A DNA stretch of 64,000 bases from Pseudovirgaria hyperparasitica (taxonomy: Eukaryota; Ascomycota; Dothideomycetes; Acrospermales; Acrospermaceae), in contig NW_022985563.1 of NCBI RefSeq assembly GCF_010093815.1, forward strand, positions 127,446 to 191,445, in the 5' to 3' direction. This document shows, one piece after another, positions 42,213-63,630 of the stretch (positions are counted from its first letter, which is position 1; each line of letters opens with the position of its first letter). Position numbers and translations under genes: made by a program. Under the pieces are notes generated by a model. That model worked only from the letters and a program-made list of their open reading frames with translations, was not told the origin of the DNA and did no database searches.

Positions 42213-42957
42213 GCAACGAGCCCTGTGGATCGTCTATATAACCGCGAAGCAGGGATCGGATGGAGCGCAGTTATCGTTGTTATCAGCTTTGCAGACAGTC
42301 CGGATACGTCTGGTAGTCCGACCCGAGGTGGTTTCTTGAGTGATTGGCAGTTGATTACTCTCTGTCAGGTCACGGGATTATTTGCTTGAACTATCAGTTG
42401 TCAGTTGCCATAACGGGAGTAGCGTGACTTTATAAACTACAGGCCCGGACTCCCGAGGTTCCCCTGGTAGGTACCTGACACTAGTCTGCTTTAGGAAAAG
42501 TATCATCCGAGGATCCCATCCCCTTTTTCCCACCATTCATTTTCCCCAACCACAGAATAATCATTTCTACAGTGTGTAAGATCATGACATAGCCAGCCAT
42601 TTCAGCCCTTGGATTTTGGGACGTGTCGGTGCTGTGTGCCTCGAGAGTGCCCCCTTACAGCATCGAATCACTCCGTCCATGTCCTGCTCTCAACAGAGTC
42701 GTTGAAGGCTGCCCCAACATCGAACCCACTAACACGCGAGGTTTACGTATTGAAGCGACGGACCAAATGATCTTCTTGGCTGGAATATCTGAAAAAAGTC
42801 AAAATTAAAAAATAAAACAAAGAGACAGTCTGTTATCTGTTTGCATTTATTCTTGCATAGCACTCAAGTCGATCTTATCTTTTCCTTCGCACGCTCATAG
42901 GGGTTCCTTTTTTCAGAGTCAAGATACTTTATTCATCAAGTTATTTTTCTCCTCTTT
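42213..42957. other. 745 bp without a supported gene
   Basis: Promoter side of the MFS gene and 3' side of the following candidate gene. AT-rich at 42790-42950, with GAAAAAAGTC and AAAAAATAAAAC stretches. No ORF of note. Confidence 0.45.
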
Positions 42958-43986
42958 CTACGTCTTACTCTCGTCATTCGTCTTTCCCTGCTCGACTAAC
43001 TTTCGTCCCGAAGGCTCAAGGTAGGAAGCGAGAAGCTCATCGCATCGCACGGCGCCGAACTTGGAACAGGGGCCCTGGTTCGCAAACGCCCCAACTGGAT
43101 GCTCCAACGAGGTCAAGAGAAAGATAACTGGACCCGTTGCCGATGGAATGTAAAGCTGGATCCTCACCGCACTGGAATAGAGTCTATAGCCTGCCGTTCG
43201 CACTCCTCCCATCCGCAATCGCATCTCGGCTACTAGGCCGGAGTGAAACTCTGAGAGGGCGATGCTGAGTCGCAGCCGGTGTGTTCTCGACACTGTACTT
43301 CTGATCGCAGGTGCGGTGGACCGTGTGGACCTAAGAGCTCGGTATTCGCGTCGGGGGCTTGCGATGAGTGGCGATTGTTGTACCGAGGATACCAATACGA
43401 TCGCGACAGGCATTCGAGTACTGGCGTTCGTATGGCATCGCTCAGCCGGCGCATGATCGACTGTGCATGTCTTACTGCGCATGTTCTGGATTGTGCGACC
43501 TTGTCGTGTGTAGGCGCAATCGCTCCCAGCGCTGTAGTCCCAACGCCGTCCCATTTTTATCGATGCTCTTATGAAGATGCTGCCCGCTCAGAATCTCGCA
43601 ATTGATTTTTAGCCACGGCTGTATTGTCACGGTGGCGCCGGAGGTACGAACGATGCTGCGAGTCGCGGCTGCGGCAGCCTCACCCACGACACATTCTGGT
43701 ATATCACCGATCATGCCGATACTCCGACTGCTCTTGTGCATCTCAGCCAGACTGTCCTCGAATACGATGTCGTACGACTTGATTATGGGTGGCAACTACT
43801 TTAGTTAGCTACAGACTCGAGAGTGTGCAGAGGCAAGGGTGCGACGATACCTTGGCTGTCAGGATCTACTGTTGGGACGACGGGAGGCCTCTGCGGCATA
43901 GCCAGTCGCAGCCAGTCAACAGCAAATGCTTTGTAACATGCGACCGCACTCATGTCGTCGAAAGTGCTGATTAGCCTGGTCCACAC
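42958..43986 (-). CDS. Possible multi-exon orphan gene, unknown function
   Basis: Three blocks on the minus strand look coding. Block 1 (43986 down to about 43876) begins MWTRLISTFDDMSAVACYKA and could splice at an in-phase GTAGAT donor. Block 2 (about 43799-43504) starts LPPIIKSYDIVFEDSLAEMH and includes GATVTIQPWLKINCEILSG. Block 3 ends at 42958 and includes SGLVAEMRLRMGGVRTAGY and RIQLYIPSATGPVIFLLTSL. Their codon choice is even and they lack low complexity. The join between blocks 2 and 3 is unresolved: an alternative frame (from SDAIRTPVLECLSRSYWYPR to SFTPA, stop near 43236) is equally possible. No domain recognised. It may be a lineage-specific gene, or decayed. Confidence 0.35.
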
Positions 43987-45880
43987 GCGTTGAAGACGAC
44001 TTGGTTGTTCGGTTCGGAAAGTTTGATGTTACAAGCCTAGATGGTGCTATTTGGGACCAACAATACGTTGTTTGTTGGATCCGTTTTCGCACTCTTCTAG
44101 TCTTTGAACATGCTGTGGTCGTCGTCGGCTATGACTGGACTCGACGGAAGTCTCGCCGTGTTGTCGTTGGTGGCGGTGGGTCAGCGTCGATGACTCAAAC
44201 GACGTGTGAAATTCTTGGTCGACTCCTGAAACAGTGGCATCAGCACAAGTTCACAGTGTGGCCTCGAGACAGAGACTTACCCGGATGTTCAACGCTCATA
44301 TCGCATGATCGAACACACTGGCCGTCTGCCAACAAGCTACGTGATATCTGCCGTCGACGACGACTGAAGAACCATCTCTATCATATTCAGAATCTCTGCA
44401 AAGATATCAGCTCTTGAATACATGTCTTTTGCTGGCATGTCTGTACTCCACCTGTGTGTCTCGAGTGCATATATGAGCGATTCCACACGTTGGCAGACGC
44501 ATCTCGACATTCATCCGAAATCGACGAAACAAATACCACGCCAGAGCTATGATATCCGTCAATGTGCTCAACCACAAAGTCTCCATCGAAACCAAACCGA
44601 GAAAGGCCATCGCCGCATCGTAGACGTGTCCGTACCCTGCTCGCACCCCGTCAGCACAAAGCTATCATCAATACAACACACTCACATCACATCCCATCCC
44701 ATCCCAATCCTCCAAACCCAAAGCCGAGACGCAAAGTACCTACTCCCCATGAAACCCAGCCGATAGGTACCTCGAAGCGTGCGTACCTACCCAACCCAAG
44801 CCAAACGCAACATACCAAACCACACAATCAAGCCTTCCTCACCTGCCATCAAAAAATCCCGTCAAGCCCCGCAAGCATCCCCCTCATCGTAGCTTACATC
44901 TGCAGTGATGCATGTGTTGCACCATATGATAGTCTGCAGTTGAAGAAAGGAGGACGGAAGGAGAGAGAGAGAGGGAAAGAATGAGAAACGCCTAGTCCTG
45001 CTGAAGATACCTACCTCCCCTGAGCGGCCCCTTTAATCCCCCCGTTATTCCCCTCCGCAGACATCCGGGTGCTCGTCGCGGCGGTGGACGCTGTAGGGCA
45101 TAGCTGGTATAGCTGGCATAGCTAGCTGGCATAGATACCTTCTGGGCGCCCACTACCCCCCTATTTTTCCTCTATGTCCCCCCCAACTCAGCCAGCTAAA
45201 ATCCAACTCGCACGCCAGAAAGAAGGGGAGACACCCTGCTAGAGGCCTGCGACTGTAGCTGCCCTGGCGATTTGTGCCCTGAGGGCCTGGCGGGCTGGTG
45301 GTGGTGCACTTCCTGGCTTGGTGCGCCCCGAGACTTCATAACGACGCGAATCTATGTACAGGGCATGATAATTATTCTCTGCGTCGGACACGCAGGGCAT
45401 TTAGACGTAGAGATGGGCTGCTGAATGTTCACTTTGCACCGACGACGGCATGTGTGCTGCTGAGACGTGGGGATGTTTGTACTGCACGATCCACGGCACA
45501 TGGATGGATGAATGTCAGACACGAACGGTGTGATGGATGATTGTGATATTCATCGTGCTCTGCACCTGTCGATGGGCAAGCGAGCATCTATCTGCGAAAA
45601 CAGAACAAGAACAAGAACAAGAACCGGTATGCCAAACACCATATGCCATGCAACCCAACCGCGCAATGCAACAACAACAACAAAACCCAACCACGCAATG
45701 CATAAACCCAAGACAAGACCAACGCTATGCAATCCAAACCGACCGCTATGCAAAACAAGACACCGACGCAAAATATACAAAATGATGCCCTCCCCTCGTC
45801 TACAACCAACCCACAACGGGACAAGTAGACGATTGAACTGTTCCCGGTGAACAGTGTGTATGTCGAATGAAGAAATCCAG
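43987..45880. other. 1.9 kb gene-poor stretch with simple repeats
   Basis: No gene I can support. A minus-strand frame at 44646-44407 has one hydrophobic segment (TLWLSTLTDIIALAWYLF) and could be a leftover exon of the candidate gene downstream. A plausible splice (44273 donor GTAAGT) exists nearby but cannot be joined into a consistent model. Simple repeats: AGCTGGCATAGCTAG type at 45100-45135, (AAGAAC)n at 45604-45625, CAACAACAAC with CCCAACCNCGCAATGCA repeats at 45650-45705. Confidence 0.4.
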
Positions 45881-45881
45881 C

Positions 45882-46135
45882 GGTATCCTCGGAACGTTTC
45901 GTCTCCTGATTGGATGTGATGGTGGGAGGAGACGAGTGTCTTACTCGATACTTGGATGTGGATGTGAGACTCTATTCAGAGGTACCCTCGGAACACCTCG
46001 TCTCTCGGGATGGTGAGAGACGAGTGTCTTACTCGATACTTGATAGAGAGGGGAATGAACCAGAGGTATCCTCGGAGCGCCTCACTTGACGACGACGATG
46101 ATGATAATGTCAAGTGAGTGTCCTACTCGATGCTT
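45882..46135 (+). repeat. Three tandem hairpin units with covarying stems (candidate structured ncRNA)
   Basis: Three units begin with GGTAYCCTCGGARC at 45882, 45981 and 46065 (spacing 99 and 84 nt) and end with GAGTGTCYTACTCGATRCTTG. Between them each has a perfect inverted repeat: unit 1 TCGTCTCCT/AGGAGACGA (45899-45907/45927-45935), unit 2 CTCGTCTCTC/GAGAGACGAG (45997-46006/46015-46024), unit 3 CTCACTTGAC/GTCAAGTGAG (46081-46090/46109-46118). Stem sequences differ, above all in unit 3, yet pairing is intact; loops (19, 8 and 18 nt) are not conserved. A second small stem, (C)GAGT-GTCYT-ACTC(G), follows in every unit. Strand is inferred from G.T wobble pairs that fit only the + strand RNA. 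It lies 173 bp beyond the stop codon of the C2H2 gene, which is on the other strand. Confidence 0.7.
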
Positions 46136-46308
46136 GAATCATGTGTGGCGGCAGGGTGCAGTGGTGAGGTGAGCAGCAGCAGCTCAGGGACAGGGAAGAC
46201 GGCGAGGGGGGAGGGGGGAAGGCAGCAGTGGCAGCAGTGGCAGCAATGCAAGAGACGGACGAGGCCATGGGGAGAGTGGATGAGAGTGCCTCAACTGGGG
46301 ACCACTCC

Positions 46309-47526
46309 TCACCAAAGGCCCGCCTCCTCGAGCTGCTCGAGCTGCTCGTACTCCCCGAAGTCCTCGGGCTGCCAGAACTGCTCGAATGGCGGCATGTAAG
46401 CCCCAAAGTCAGTCCTAGGCTCAGCAGGAGCAGCAGGGAGATAGGCCTGCTCCTGAGCCTGGGTGGGCTCCAACTGCCCATCATCCCCGAAGAGCTGCTC
46501 GACAGCAGCCCCAGAGTCGGGCACCATCTGCCCATCCTGCCCCCATGGCTGCTGGTCAGCCCCAAAGCCGGGCTGAGGCCCAGGAGCAGCATAGTAATAG
46601 GGCTGCTCCTGGCCCTGGAACTGGCCCTCTAGAGCCGCCGTGGGCCCAAACTGCGGTCCTGCCGCCGGCACAGTCGCAAACTGGCCATCCCAAGCAGGGT
46701 CGTCACCCATACTTGGCTCCTCCATCTGCGGCAGATAGAGGTTTCCCCTCCAGCCTTGCTGCTGGACGAACGCCTCAGGAGGAGGAGTGATGGGAGCCTG
46801 GGGGGCACCCATGGGAAGAGCCCAGGGAGCCGGCCCTGGGAGCTCAGGAAGCGGCTGCTGCACGACTGGCAGCTGCTCCTGTGGCGGCGTGCTGGGCTCC
46901 GTCTGCCGCGCCTGTTTGCGTGCAGCAGCACGCTCTTTGGCAGACGGCTTCTTCTTCTTCTCGCCGTCTGCATTTGCCCTCGCCCTCGGCTTGGGCACGA
47001 TGTCATGCGCCCGGACATGATGTTTGCCCCGGGCATGGTCATCCTTGAAAGTTTCCTGGCAACCAGGCTGCTTGCAAGGGAGGAGCTCGCCGCCATGCTT
47101 GCTCCGCATGTGTGCTTTCACATGCTCCTTCTGTCTCAGGGACAGGCTGCACACATGGCATTTGTATCCCCTGGCGTTCAGGTGAGCACTCATGTAGTGC
47201 TTCCCCTCGCCCTTGATACCACAGGCCTTGCCAGACCTGTAGTTGCAGCCTGGCCACGAGCACACCCAGGGCTTCGGGTGTGTCGGCTGGGACTCGTCCA
47301 GCCTGCACCAGGTGCCTCGCACCTCTGCTGTGTACGCCAGCTTTGGAGCGAGCTCCTCCACTGGGGCAGCCATGCCTGAAAACGAGGGCTGGGATGCAGC
47401 GACACTCGTTTCCCGGCGACTGGATGGTGCTAGAGTGGTGTTGCTAAGCACCGGAAACACGCTCCTTGGAGGGGGGAGGGGGGGGGGGCGTGCAGGTGCT
47501 GTAACAACTTGTCGCGACAGGCTCAC
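46309..47526 (-). CDS. C2H2 zinc-finger protein with Gln/Pro-rich C-terminus
   Basis: A single ORF of 405 aa; an in-frame ATG at 47373 (MAAPVEELAPKLAY) is an alternative start that would remove a Pro/Ser-rich leader. Zinc fingers occupy about 85-180: WVCSWPGCNYRSGKACG with a distant H-x3-H (KHYMSAHLNARG), YKCHVCSLSLRQKEHVKAHM with RSKH, and LPCKQPGCQETFKDDHARGK with HHVRAH. A basic patch (EKKKKPSAKERAAARKQARQ) follows and could be the nuclear localisation signal. Residues 215-405 are rich in Gln, Pro, Ala, Glu and Gly with aromatic residues (YYYAAPGPQPGFG, FEQFWQPEDFGEYEQLEQLE), resembling a transcription activation region. Probably a sequence-specific transcription factor, target unknown. 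It lies isolated in a gene-poor island. Confidence 0.72.
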   Translation of the reverse strand: MSLSRQVVTAPARPPPLPPPRSVFPVLSNTTLAPSSRRETSVAASQPSFSGMAAPVEELAPKLAYTAEVRGTWCRLDESQPTHPKPWVCSWPGCNYRSGKACGIKGEGKHYMSAHLNARGYKCHVCSLSLRQKEHVKAHMRSKHGGELLPCKQPGCQETFKDDHARGKHHVRAHDIVPKPRARANADGEKKKKPSAKERAAARKQARQTEPSTPPQEQLPVVQQPLPELPGPAPWALPMGAPQAPITPPPEAFVQQQGWRGNLYLPQMEEPSMGDDPAWDGQFATVPAAGPQFGPTAALEGQFQGQEQPYYYAAPGPQPGFGADQQPWGQDGQMVPDSGAAVEQLFGDDGQLEPTQAQEQAYLPAAPAEPRTDFGAYMPPFEQFWQPEDFGEYEQLEQLEEAGLW

Positions 47527-49847: not shown

Positions 49848-49895
49848 GAAAGCAGGAAAGCAGGAAAGCAGGAAAGCAGGAAAGCAGGAAAGCAG
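49848..49895. repeat. GAAAGCAG octamer array, six perfect copies
   Basis: Six head-to-tail identical copies of an 8-bp unit, 48 bp. Identity of all copies suggests recent expansion. Confidence 0.9.
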
Positions 49896-50170: not shown

Positions 50171-50240
50171 AGACTACCCTAGACTTCCCTAGACTTCCCC
50201 AGACTACGCCAGACTTCCCTAGACTTCCTTAGACCTCCCC
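50171..50240. repeat. Imperfect AGACTTCCCT decamer array
   Basis: About six to seven degenerate copies of a 10-bp unit (AGACTTCCCT, AGACTTCCCC, AGACTACGCC, AGACTTCCTT, AGACCTCCCC). Confidence 0.8.
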
Positions 50241-50525: not shown

Positions 50526-50571
50526 GGGGGATGGGATGGGATGGGATGGGATGGGATGGGATGGGATGGGG
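50526..50571. repeat. GGGAT pentamer array, possible G-quadruplex
   Basis: Eight copies of ATGGG in a row preceded by GGGGG: many evenly spaced G3 runs with 2-nt spacers on the + strand, sufficient for intramolecular G-quadruplex formation. It is not the telomere repeat TTAGGG. Confidence 0.85.
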
Positions 50572-50864
50572 TGTGTGTGGTTTGCACTTTGGAGTTTTGA
50601 AGCTTTTTTGTTTTTTTTTTTGTATTTCGTTTGTATATTGTCTGGCTAGCTAGGTAGCTAGCTAGGTAGGTATATGGGTGGATTGATGGGTCTTGATACG
50701 TGACAGACTGACAGACAGACTGACAGACAGGCCTTGCTGTCAAGAGCTTGCGATCAAGACTGCTCCAATGCGACTTTATTGTCGCCATTATAAAGGGTCA
50801 TGTGTGTATTGTACGTGCTTCATGCCAGACTCTGTCCTTGGAGTGATGATTGCGCATGATGGAC

Positions 50865-50936
50865 TGTCCTGTCCTGTCCAATCCTGTAATGTCTAGTCCC
50901 GTCCTGCCCCGTCCTGCCCCGTCCTGTCCTGTCCTC
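50865..50936. repeat. GTCCT/GCCCC pentamer array
   Basis: Degenerate GTCCT-type pentamers in about a dozen copies (GTCCTGTCCTGTCC, GTCCTGCCCCGTCCTGCCCC, GTCCTGTCCTGTCCT). Confidence 0.75.
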
Positions 50937-51143: not shown

Positions 51144-53390
51144 TCACCGCCCCTCCGCCCGCGCAACAAGCCCCTCCCCAAGCCCAACCGGCTGCCAGAC
51201 CGCCCTATCGCCCTTCTTCTGCGCCCACAGAATATCGCCATGCATATACACCACCACACCGCCCTTGCCCGTCGCACTAGCCGTGATGCGGAACAGCGGC
51301 AGGCCGGTCTGGGCGTGTGCTTCGCGCAGGGGGACGAGCAGGAGGTTTTCGTCGCTGCACCACGACTCGACGACGTCTCTGAAGGTTGTCTCGACGGCGT
51401 GCTGCGGCGGGGCCGATGTCGAGGATGATGATGCGGTGGTGTTGGGGCCAGGTGTAGCGGGTCCGGAGGCGGGCATGTGAGCTGGTCGTGCAGGGCCGGC
51501 GGCGGGGAGGGGGAGGAGCGTCTTTGCGCTGTCGCCGAGGTCGAGGGCGTGGTTGATCATCTCGAGGCCCTTTTCCCACTGTGCGTCGACGGGCTTGAGG
51601 GCGTTGATGGCGTCGGGGAAGCGCGTCTTCCACCAGGTGTACCACTGGCTGATTTCGGCGTAGTTGGGCTCGGCCGTCAGCCAGAGATGGAGGATGTTGA
51701 GCCACTTGGGGAAGAATTCGGCGAGGAGGAGTTGGGCGATGACGAGGGGTTTGAAGACGGGGGTCCATGCGAGGACGTGCTCGAGCGGCGCCATGTCCTG
51801 GTTTGAAGGGTCGATTTCGAAGTCGGTGGAGAGGTGGGCGGCGAGGCGGGGGAGGAGGTGGTTGATCAGGGAGCGGTCGACTTCGGGGCGCATGACGTCC
51901 TGCCATTCGGCCAGGCCGGGCATGATGCCTCGAGTGAGATCCCAGGTGTCGAGAGCGAGACGGAGCTTGCGTTTTACGTCTGCGAGGAGGCCGGTTGCGT
52001 TTGAAGGGTCGGTGTGTTGCTCGGAGAGATATGGGAGCCAGGGGAAGAGCCATGTGTGTGGGAGCGATGTGGGATGTTTTCTCTTGAGCGCAGTACGAGG
52101 ATTCCATCCCTGTACGCTGCTTGAGAGCTTCTGTTCGACGAGGTTGTTCACCACGCTGTTGCGCACGAACTCTGGGAGGAGCGGCGACCACGCTTCCACG
52201 AGTGTCAGCAGAATCGTCGGTGAATGTGTGTCCCAGTCGTTTGTCACGGCCGTGCGGACTCTCGGTAGCCAGAGAGAGTATATCATCGTCTCGTAGGACG
52301 TTGTCGACTTCTTGGGACGTCGAAGAGATTCAAAGTCGTCCTGTGTGGAGGAACTTGTGCCTCTGCCGATCCGCAATATGCTTTCCAGCCGTTTGAGATA
52401 TGTGACCAAGTGCATTGGATGCTCTAGGGGGTCCCAGTCAAGCATCTCCTGCTTGAACAGCGGGTGTATGACTGCCACAGCAGCATCAGACAGCCCATAC
52501 TCATCAATATCAGCTGCATAGGTCGTCTGTAGCTGCTCCAATTCGCTGGTAACTTCCTCCCATCTCGCAAGAGCATCGTCCGCAAGCATGGGAGTGTTGA
52601 CATCCAGGCTTGACAATGCGACGACTGCTTCATACATTGCTTTTACCTTTGCGTCTTCGTCCTCCTGGTCTACCAGCTCTTTGAGTAATTGCTCTTCTTC
52701 GGCGTCAATATACTTGTTGCGCTCCACCATATCATTCCACGCTTCAGCGAAGCCTTCCAGCTCGAGTCGAGCACGTTTTGCGATCTTTTCGGCCTCGGTT
52801 TCACCTCTGACATGGCCCGTGGTTGGTGTGAGCAGCCCGGCGGTGGAGGTGAGGAGTCTGTTCTCTCGTCCGGTTGCATCGATGAGAGACTTGAGGACGT
52901 TGGGCACTTCCAAGCCCTCTGATTCCTTCTCAATGTCGGCAGCAGTGCGATACTTCTTCTTGGCTTTGGTGAAGCCGCCGGGTGTGCTGGCTCCACTGTC
53001 TCCAGCGCTCTTGGCCGCCCTGACAGCGTCTTTTCGTCGCTTGCGCGCTTTACGCTCTTCCTCTGAGGAGTCCTCGTACTCTTCGCCCCTGCGCTCGGCT
53101 TGTCGTTTGGCTTCCTCCTTGGCCTGCTTCGTCTTCTCTTTCACGGCACCAACACCAGCACCCTGCGGCCGAAGTTTTACTTCGATCGGGTTGAGAATAC
53201 CGTCGCCACCTTTGCCTAGACCTTCGCCCTCCTTGTAGCCCATCTTTGCCATCATCTTCTGCGCGAACGACATCTTGGGGCCTCCACTTCCATTGCTGCC
53301 AGCGCCAGCGCCAGCACCCCCCGTCTTTGCAGCTTTGCGGTTCGCATTGTCACCAAACTCCGACTTGCGCTTGAAGGACGGTCGCTCCAT
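51144..53390 (-). CDS. NTR1: G-patch spliceosome-disassembly factor (Ntr1/Spp382, TFIP11 homologue)
   Basis: A single exon of 748 aa. After a basic N-terminus comes a G-patch (about 38-80): MSFAQKMMAKMGYKEGEGLG, GILNPIEVKLRPQGAGVG. In this family it binds and activates the helicase Prp43. A Lys/Glu/Arg-rich linker follows (about 83-135). The rest is the GCFC/TIP domain: DEYGLSDAAVAVIHPLFKQE, MIYSLWLPRVRTAVTNDWD, EAWSPLLPEFV, HTWLFPWLPYL, EHVLAWTPVFKP and EFFPKWLNILHLWLTAEPNY. A Ser/Thr-rich insert comes at about 645-675, and the C-terminal segment is VVESWCSDENLLLVPLREAH. With Ntr2 and Prp43 it releases the lariat-intron spliceosome in the nucleus. Length is normal for fungi. Confidence 0.92.
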   Translation of the reverse strand: MERPSFKRKSEFGDNANRKAAKTGGAGAGAGSNGSGGPKMSFAQKMMAKMGYKEGEGLGKGGDGILNPIEVKLRPQGAGVGAVKEKTKQAKEEAKRQAERRGEEYEDSSEEERKARKRRKDAVRAAKSAGDSGASTPGGFTKAKKKYRTAADIEKESEGLEVPNVLKSLIDATGRENRLLTSTAGLLTPTTGHVRGETEAEKIAKRARLELEGFAEAWNDMVERNKYIDAEEEQLLKELVDQEDEDAKVKAMYEAVVALSSLDVNTPMLADDALARWEEVTSELEQLQTTYAADIDEYGLSDAAVAVIHPLFKQEMLDWDPLEHPMHLVTYLKRLESILRIGRGTSSSTQDDFESLRRPKKSTTSYETMIYSLWLPRVRTAVTNDWDTHSPTILLTLVEAWSPLLPEFVRNSVVNNLVEQKLSSSVQGWNPRTALKRKHPTSLPHTWLFPWLPYLSEQHTDPSNATGLLADVKRKLRLALDTWDLTRGIMPGLAEWQDVMRPEVDRSLINHLLPRLAAHLSTDFEIDPSNQDMAPLEHVLAWTPVFKPLVIAQLLLAEFFPKWLNILHLWLTAEPNYAEISQWYTWWKTRFPDAINALKPVDAQWEKGLEMINHALDLGDSAKTLLPLPAAGPARPAHMPASGPATPGPNTTASSSSTSAPPQHAVETTFRDVVESWCSDENLLLVPLREAHAQTGLPLFRITASATGKGGVVVYMHGDILWAQKKGDRAVWQPVGLGEGLVARAEGR

Positions 53391-62473: not shown

Positions 62474-63630
62474 CTACGCCCCCTTCGCGTCTGGCGGACA
62501 CAGCAGCTCCCTCCCATGCTTCTCATTCCACGCCTCCGTGCTCTCGAGCATAGCCCACCGCACGCCATCCAGCCCACACGGCAACACGACCGAACACGCC
62601 AGAATCGGAGGCGCATGATACCTGCCCCCGCGCAACTCATTCTGCATCGCCGCAACCTCACCCTGCACCTCCTCCATCCGCGCCCTCACGCGCTGCACAT
62701 CCCTCTCCCTCTCCCTTTCCCTCCCCTCCACCCCCCTATTCTTCCTCCCCTCCTCCCCCCACTCCCCCCCAACAATCCGATCAACCTTACTCAACACCAG
62801 CGTAAACGCCAACCCACCCCTCACCAGAATCTCCAAAACCCGCCTATCCCCGCCCTGCACCCCGACCTCCGCATCAATCAACAGGAACCGCATGCCCAAC
62901 TGCTCGCGCCGCTGCAGATATTTCACAATCTCCACGCCCCACTCCGCGCGACTGCCGTAGCCGTAGCCGGGCATGTCGACGAGGACCATGGCGCGTTTGC
63001 CGAACCAGGTGCGTTGGCGGGCGTTGTATGCTGCGCCGCCGAGGCCGATGGCGTTCATGCTGGTTGTGTGGCCGGGGGTTTTGCTGACGCTGGCGGGGCG
63101 GCGCGGGTTGGGCGTTGTTGGGGGGATGTGCAGGAGGGCGTTGAGGAGGGAGGATTTGCCGGCGTTGGAGCGGCCGAGGAGGGTTGTCTCGGGGAGTTCG
63201 GAGACGGGGAAGTGGGCGAATTTGGAGAGGGGGGAGAGGCGGGNNNNNNNNNNNNNNNNNNNNNNNNNNNNNNNNNNNNNNNNNNNNNNNNNNNNNNNNN
63301 GTTTGCGTAGTGGAGGGCGGTTGGGCTTGGGGGGTTGTTGTGTGGGTAGAGGCCTAGGGCGGATTGGGGGAGTGCTGGGTTGGAGGGGGGTTTGGGGATG
63401 GGTTTGGTTGCTGTTGTTGTTGTTGTGGTTTTGGATCTTGTGGATTGTGGGCGGGAGGGTTGTGTCGAGGGGGTGTGGTGGTCGAGGTGGAGGTGTCGGG
63501 TTGGTGGTGATGAGGACGACGAGATGCTCAGGGAGGACGAAGTGGTGGTGAATGGCCACGAGTGCGCCGACGGTCGAGGATTGCTGTGGAGTGCGACATC
63601 GAGGAAGCGCGTCGCCGCACGATGCGACAT
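62474..63630 (-). CDS. MRX8: EngB/YihA-type GTPase, mitochondrial (Mrx8-like), interrupted by an N gap
   Basis: The C-terminal part (63243-62474) carries the GTPase: G1 LGRSNAGKSSLLNALL, a G2 Thr in KTPGHTTSMNAIGLGG, G3 VLVDMPGYGYGS and G4 LVLSKVDR, preceded by LSKFAHFPVSELPETTLLGR as in the EngB/YihA family. Family role: assembly of the large ribosomal subunit; yeast Mrx8 acts in mitochondrial translation. The N-terminus read from the ATG at 63630 (MSHRAATRFLDVALHS...) is Ser/Thr/Arg-rich like a mitochondrial presequence and reaches ALGLYPHNNPPSPTALHYAN, the usual pre-GTPase segment, at the other side of the gap (63244-63300). The two parts are in different frames across the 57 Ns, so the true gap length is not 57 or an intron is hidden there. 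A Glu/Arg-rich insert (EEGRKNRGVEGREREREREV-like) lies in the GTPase domain. Confidence 0.82.
63244..63300. other. Assembly gap (57 N)
   Basis: A run of 57 undetermined bases within the EngB-type gene. Flanks are G-rich on the + strand, which may have hindered sequencing. Confidence 0.98.

Follow-up and report, generated by a model that had tools for sequence, protein, structure and literature searches.

The hallmark of guanidine-II aptamers is a 4-nt terminal loop of the ACGR type, and in H/ACA small nucleolar RNAs the box lies 13–18 nt below the pocket. Comparative genomics has yielded several fungal non-coding RNA motifs of unknown function, described in the accessible portions of PMC5640933 and PMC8216456. 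Template switching in DNA replication, as set out in the accessible portion of PMC8794818, can make multi-base compensatory changes in a single mutation. Against these systems we set an array of three hairpin units located in a 64-kb window (the whole stretch of DNA that was analysed) of a 35.0-Mb Dothideomycete host genome assembled in 59 contigs.

Three tandem units with common flanks around a stem of differing sequence had been proposed in the initial annotation, and all were found where it had placed them: unit 1 at 45878–45954, unit 2 at 45977–46042 and unit 3 at 46061–46136 (+ strand). Unit 1 consists of a left core, a 9-bp long stem (45899–45907/45927–45935), a 19-nt loop and a right core, with the long stem extended to 10 bp in unit 2 (45997–46006/46015–46024, 8-nt loop) and in unit 3 (46081–46090/46109–46118, 18-nt loop). 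The loops had been described as varying freely; they measure 19, 8 and 18 nt, and their similarity is no better than that of shuffles. A covariance model built from the three units returned 93.8, 84.1 and 96.4 bits for units 1–3, these scores of 84–96 bits being those of its own training sequences and its E-values being rough.

What the units have in common is a 23-nt left core and a 21-nt right core, whereas they diverge in their loops, in their flanks and over much of the long stem. Pairwise identity is 18–20 of 23 positions in the left core and 19–21 of 21 in the right, with 17/23 and 19/21 positions, respectively, invariant in all three units. Likeness between units did not exceed that of shuffles for the flanks (p 0.37–0.70) or the loops (p 0.09–0.28), and in its distal arms unit 3 has no more in common with units 1 and 2 than shuffles do (p ≥ 0.86). 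For units 1 and 3, an apparent alignability of the loops and of the 5′ flanks was not supported by the shuffle test (p 0.09 and 0.585). With up to three mismatches allowed, the right flank pattern has three matches in the window against none in each of 100 shuffles; the left flank pattern is not enriched at this tolerance (17 matches, chance mean 14.6), and its three exact matches in the window are the three units. The 264 kb examined contain 21 perfect hairpins with a stem of 9 bp or more and a loop of at most 20 nt, the three unit stems included, giving a probability of ∼1e-6 that three would fall in a given 230 nt. The three-unit arrangement is not due to chance. A coding repeat was considered and rejected: successive units are spaced by 99 and 84, both divisible by three, yet the loop lengths shift the frames of the right arms.

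The conserved flanks themselves pair, a feature missed by the initial annotation, making each unit a single hairpin with a conserved lower half. From the base upwards, the pairing order is CA/TG, GGTAYC/GATRCT, unpaired CTC/TACTC, GGA/TCY, a bulged R, CRY/GTG, a bulged Y and the long stem, and the asymmetric internal loop CUC/UACUC is invariant in 3/3 units. The evidence for an outer stem, P0, is weak. Candidate helices are ATCCA/TGGAT in unit 1 (45875–45957, + strand) and, with unit-specific sequences, CTCTATtCA/TGATAGAG in unit 2 (45970–46048) and ATGAacCA/TGaaTCAT in unit 3 (46055–46142); their p values for units 1, 2 and 3 are 0.017, 0.067 and 0.41 against shuffled flanks, and 0.27, 0.17 and 0.59 against random places in the window.

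The initial annotation also held that units 2 and 3 differ at about half of their long-stem pairs, always on both arms, and the count bears this out (5/10 pairs differ, 5/5 two-sided). Units 1 and 3 differ at six of nine pairs and units 1 and 2 at two of nine, all of these on both arms (6/6 and 2/2), and the tenth, base pair of the long stem shows a one-sided difference between unit 1 and units 2 and 3. Matched to its own right arm, every left arm pairs at 9/9 positions; matched to the right arms of the other units, it pairs at 4–8/9. In a 23-pair model, 68 of the 69 cells are standard pairs when read as + and 60 when read as − (59 are Watson–Crick), a contrast that is biased because the structure was drawn by hand with the + wobbles in view. 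Two-sided changes that keep pairing occur at 6/23 pairs (1/500 shuffles as high) and in seven cells (0/500), with a covariation score of 0.493 against 0.268 in shuffles (0/500 as high) and at most 0.159 when the structure is slid; the excess of extra pair types is modest (11 against 8.8, 23/500 as high). Given no structure, RNAalifold returned an almost identical fold with 7/24 pairs changed on both sides and a z of about −6 for each strand relative to column-shuffled alignments (0/300 as low). The stability of the single units is not unusual for their composition on the + strand (z of −0.14, −2.13 and −0.90 for units 1–3), and the corresponding values on the − strand are −2.78, −3.05 and −0.91.

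That pairing has been maintained across the units is well supported. The initial annotation had argued that drift would break the pairing and that the structure thus looks selected; 27/27 long-stem cells are still paired even though the distal stem of unit 3, the loops and the flanks have diverged. Selection on an RNA structure is likely, judged from three paralogous copies at one locus, but not proven. The changes are possibly just two block events of the kind that template switching could make without selection: a block by which unit 3 stands apart, and a change of two pairs at the stem tip that distinguishes unit 1 from unit 2. Independent events are few because there are only three paralogues. 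A core that is kept, a stem that still pairs and a remainder that has drifted are together the strongest evidence for function.

The reading that we favour, at a probability of roughly 0.4 on the sequence evidence, is that each unit makes up one hairpin module within a longer RNA and that the three form a tandem protein-binding array. In such a module the lower stem GGUAYC/GAURCU would be topped by the invariant 3 × 5 internal loop CUC/UACUC, followed by the short helices GGA/UCY and CRY/GUG with single bulged bases between them. The internal loop and the bulges would be the site at which a factor acts in trans, in the simplest case a protein that binds RNA. The long stem, its sequence free provided that pairing holds, may act as a clamp that forces the internal loop to form, with the terminal loop likewise free, and three copies would provide avidity. 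The array may be carried on the − strand, in the 3′ UTR of the neighbouring C2H2 gene, or on a + strand RNA converging on that gene. We infer transcription, the strand, the binding partner and an effect on the C2H2 gene alike.

The array adjoins an orphan C2H2-type zinc-finger open reading frame of 354 aa on the − strand (46309–47373), with the nearest unit ending 172 bases past its stop codon; all three units would lie in the 3′ UTR if the mRNA extends at least 431 nt beyond the stop. A database of 5.8 billion proteins yielded 3566 candidates for comparison, none of them a homologue at E ≤ 0.001. The match to Pfam zf-C2H2 is below the cut-off, and the fingers match WT1, CTCF and other C2H2 proteins in the PDB; by eye, the protein has about three fingers and a Q/P-rich tail. 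A search of its own genome with this protein gave four further matches at 27–32% identity, the best at 28% (E 5e-6), and no close paralogue, and the unit model found no unit at the four loci. The reading frame also contains a duplicated coding segment (QxQEQ...AAP) at 46425–46460 and 46581–46618, the copies being 156 nt apart and each holding a hairpin, CAGGAGCAG/CTGCTCCTG of 9 bp and CCAGGAGCAGC/GCTGCTCCTGG of 11 bp. Just upstream of unit 1 is a perfect 8-bp hairpin with a 21-nt loop (45796–45832, no strand assigned), which has TCGTCT/AGACGA in common with the stems of units 1 and 2 and is without their cores. It was rejected as a fourth unit, as a scan with the unit model up to E 10 left this position unmatched. 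A further perfect hairpin, of 7 bp with a 5-nt loop, lies at 45837–45855 (no strand assigned).

Beside the array, positions 45595–45795 form a tract (no strand assigned) that is rich in A and C on the + strand (0.45 A, 0.33 C) and so in G and T on the − strand, possibly marking the end or the start of a transcript. Taking 41 long open reading frames as proxy genes and 75% over 100 nt as the definition of a tract, we found G+T-rich tracts within 500 nt downstream of four of the 41 and A+C-rich tracts downstream of one, with neither type within 300 nt upstream of any (0/41). The G+T-rich tract leans weakly towards the end of a − strand transcript. At paired columns, one-sided changes (n = 5) keep a wobble on the + strand in four cases and on the − strand in one; five changes are too few for this count to fix the strand. 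Overall, the wobbles lean towards +, and the G+T-rich tract and the single-unit z-scores lean towards −.

The surrounding ∼4 kb (42400–46300) holds no ATG-started open reading frame of at least 200 aa. A TFIP11-like protein encoded in the window (gene at 51144–53390) is 100% identical to the window's own entry and reaches at most 65% identity to other entries, with 62% to Lepidopterella palustris and 64% to Coniosporium apollinis, both Dothideomycetes. Elsewhere in the window, short tandem repeats cluster at 49848–49895 (GAAAGCAG, ×6), 50171–50239 (AGACTTCCCT, ×6.9), 50528–50570 (GGGAT, ×8.6) and 50864–50935 (CTGTC, ×14.4), and a run of 57 N, either a gap or sequence that was withheld, occupies 63244–63300.

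Further copies in the host's own genome, such as a dispersed repeat or transposon would have, were found neither with exact and loosened patterns nor with blastn, searches that strongly diverged copies could escape. Extra pattern matches in this genome show no excess over the same patterns read backwards (15 against 17, 1 against 2, 2 against 8, 8 against 8 and 29 against 41), the first of these counts being for up to three mismatches, where the three units bring the total to 18 places. Run over the window with filters off, the unit model found nothing above chance beyond the units (next best 11.2 bits, E 1.2), and 200 kb of two other contigs plus two near-pattern loci held no further unit. 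In prokaryote genomes, a gapped pattern matched at least 120 stretches scattered across unrelated phyla. The unit model, applied to 120 of these, gave a best score of 21.3 bits (E 0.0055, a betaproteobacterial contig), followed by 16.8 and 16.3, compared with 84–96 bits for the units from which the model was built. The 21.3-bit match is without CCTCGGA and TACTCGA; it agrees with the model mainly at the GATGATGAT letters of the loop, and several of its pairs are non-standard. Three scans of viral contigs gave zero, zero and two matches, both of the latter without a unit-model match at E up to 10. We take the prokaryote and viral matches as chance.

Rfam 15 gives no match in the window at gathering scores, in line with the initial annotation, which had known of no named fungal RNA of this kind, and a search of 45500–46400 up to E 10 returned two matches, at E 7.5 and 9.9, which fall far short of the gathering scores. 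A description of such an element was not found in a limited library of open-access literature. Taken together, the array looks like a real folded-RNA element, present at one locus, and is a lead rather than a proven new class of RNA. That it represents a lineage-restricted class of tandem RNA modules, with a recognised internal loop and a clamp of free sequence, which would regulate the adjacent zinc-finger gene in cis or through a converging transcript, is a tentative and rather doubtful extension drawn from the sequence.

The nearest rival to the protein-binding array is a cluster of milRNA-like precursors, which we consider somewhat unlikely. Here, three hairpins in tandem would be processed by Dicer and Argonaute to free an RNA of ∼21 nt, mainly from the right arm, the conserved arms being the small RNA and its partner strand, and the distal stem and loop could vary. 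The conserved blocks of 23 and 21 nt have the size of Dicer products, the right arm is the most conserved, and the genome has three Piwi-domain and four Dicer-dimer matches over the cut-off (one of the latter with an internal stop), so that both Dicer and Argonaute genes are present. The would-be duplex contains no secondary stems and 12 unpaired bases, under the limit of 20 for fungal hairpins given in the accessible text of PMC9757828. Such precursors have no need of unpaired bases that stay invariant on both arms, however, and if the duplex is equated with the conserved core, the inter-duplex lengths are 33, 22 and 32 nt as opposed to the fewer than 20 reported in the same accessible text (PMC9757828). 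Near-matching sites elsewhere also show no surplus (18 with the units, 17 backwards). Upkeep at the DNA level, which we judge unlikely, would require no RNA function: after an old tandem duplication, quasi-palindrome correction would copy arm onto arm, which would keep the stems perfect and alter them a block at a time. The 27 long-stem cells include no G-U and are Watson–Crick throughout, and the stems are thus perfect reverse complements with multi-base change, as expected of template-switch palindromes, whereas G-U fills 9/42 cells in the remaining pairs (Fisher p 0.0096, for cells that are not independent and core pairs that were picked with the wobbles in view). Template switching would fit the absence of G-U from the long stem, as would strong selection to keep the clamp stable. 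The five-pair block of unit 3 (against unit 2) and the two-pair tip change could each be a single event, and the process is documented in the histories of rRNA genes (PMC8794818, accessible portion). Template switching nevertheless leaves unexplained why a 44-nt core, mismatched loop bases included, was conserved while the loops and flanks diverged. In the accessible portion of PMC8794818 such changes are enriched at loops of 4 nt, whereas the loops here measure 8–19 nt, and the window offers no obvious outside donor (CACTTGAC occurs nowhere else and the 8-mer TCACTTGA at two other places), although local arm-to-arm copying needs none.

Palindromic DNA sites, bound as duplex or cruciform by, for example, the adjacent C2H2 protein, would account for the zinc-finger reading frame beside the array, the perfect palindromes and the additional perfect hairpins at 45796 and 45837. 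A protein that reads DNA sequence would forbid the changes of stem sequence, though, and the one-sided changes, small in number, are all transitions that keep a wobble on one strand (5/5), as expected of RNA; we hold this explanation to be very unlikely. Least probable, and disfavoured, is an array of H/ACA-type small nucleolar guides or metabolite-binding riboswitches, of which we think the chance is slight indeed. The general layout of both, two stems that vary with a conserved internal loop between them, is also that of the units, and the accessible text of PMC8216456 reports single-hairpin guide-like RNA candidates in fungi. Against them, no Rfam match was obtained, no H (ANANNA) or ACA box lies 13–18 nt below the upper stem in any of the six unit-strand combinations, and the neighbouring reading frame encodes a zinc-finger protein, not a metabolic gene. 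If the element is indeed a functional RNA, it would be a compact natural experiment in which side-by-side copies reveal which bases are fixed and which need no more than to pair. It would also separate selection from template switching as causes of compensatory change.

Among described systems, the array resembles the fungal milRNA hairpins of PMC9757828 in its conserved arms of ∼21 nt, variable loop, non-coding location and accompanying RNAi genes, and differs in its longer inter-arm distance and in a conserved internal loop in mid-duplex. With the template-switch hairpins of PMC8794818 it shares perfect stems and multi-base compensatory change, but it also has a conserved imperfect core. Clustered guanidine-II aptamer hairpins of vertebrates (PMC12335538) are likewise tandem, near-identical hairpins in a eukaryotic RNA, whereas the terminal loops of the array, at 8–19 nt, are not conserved and are without an ACGR-type loop. 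A tandem three-unit hairpin with such a core was not found in the accessible text of PMC5640933 and PMC8216456. While the fungal motifs reported there rest on several to many species, and the array on three copies at one locus, the two are alike in their conserved non-coding hairpins, conserved internal-loop bases and covarying stems.
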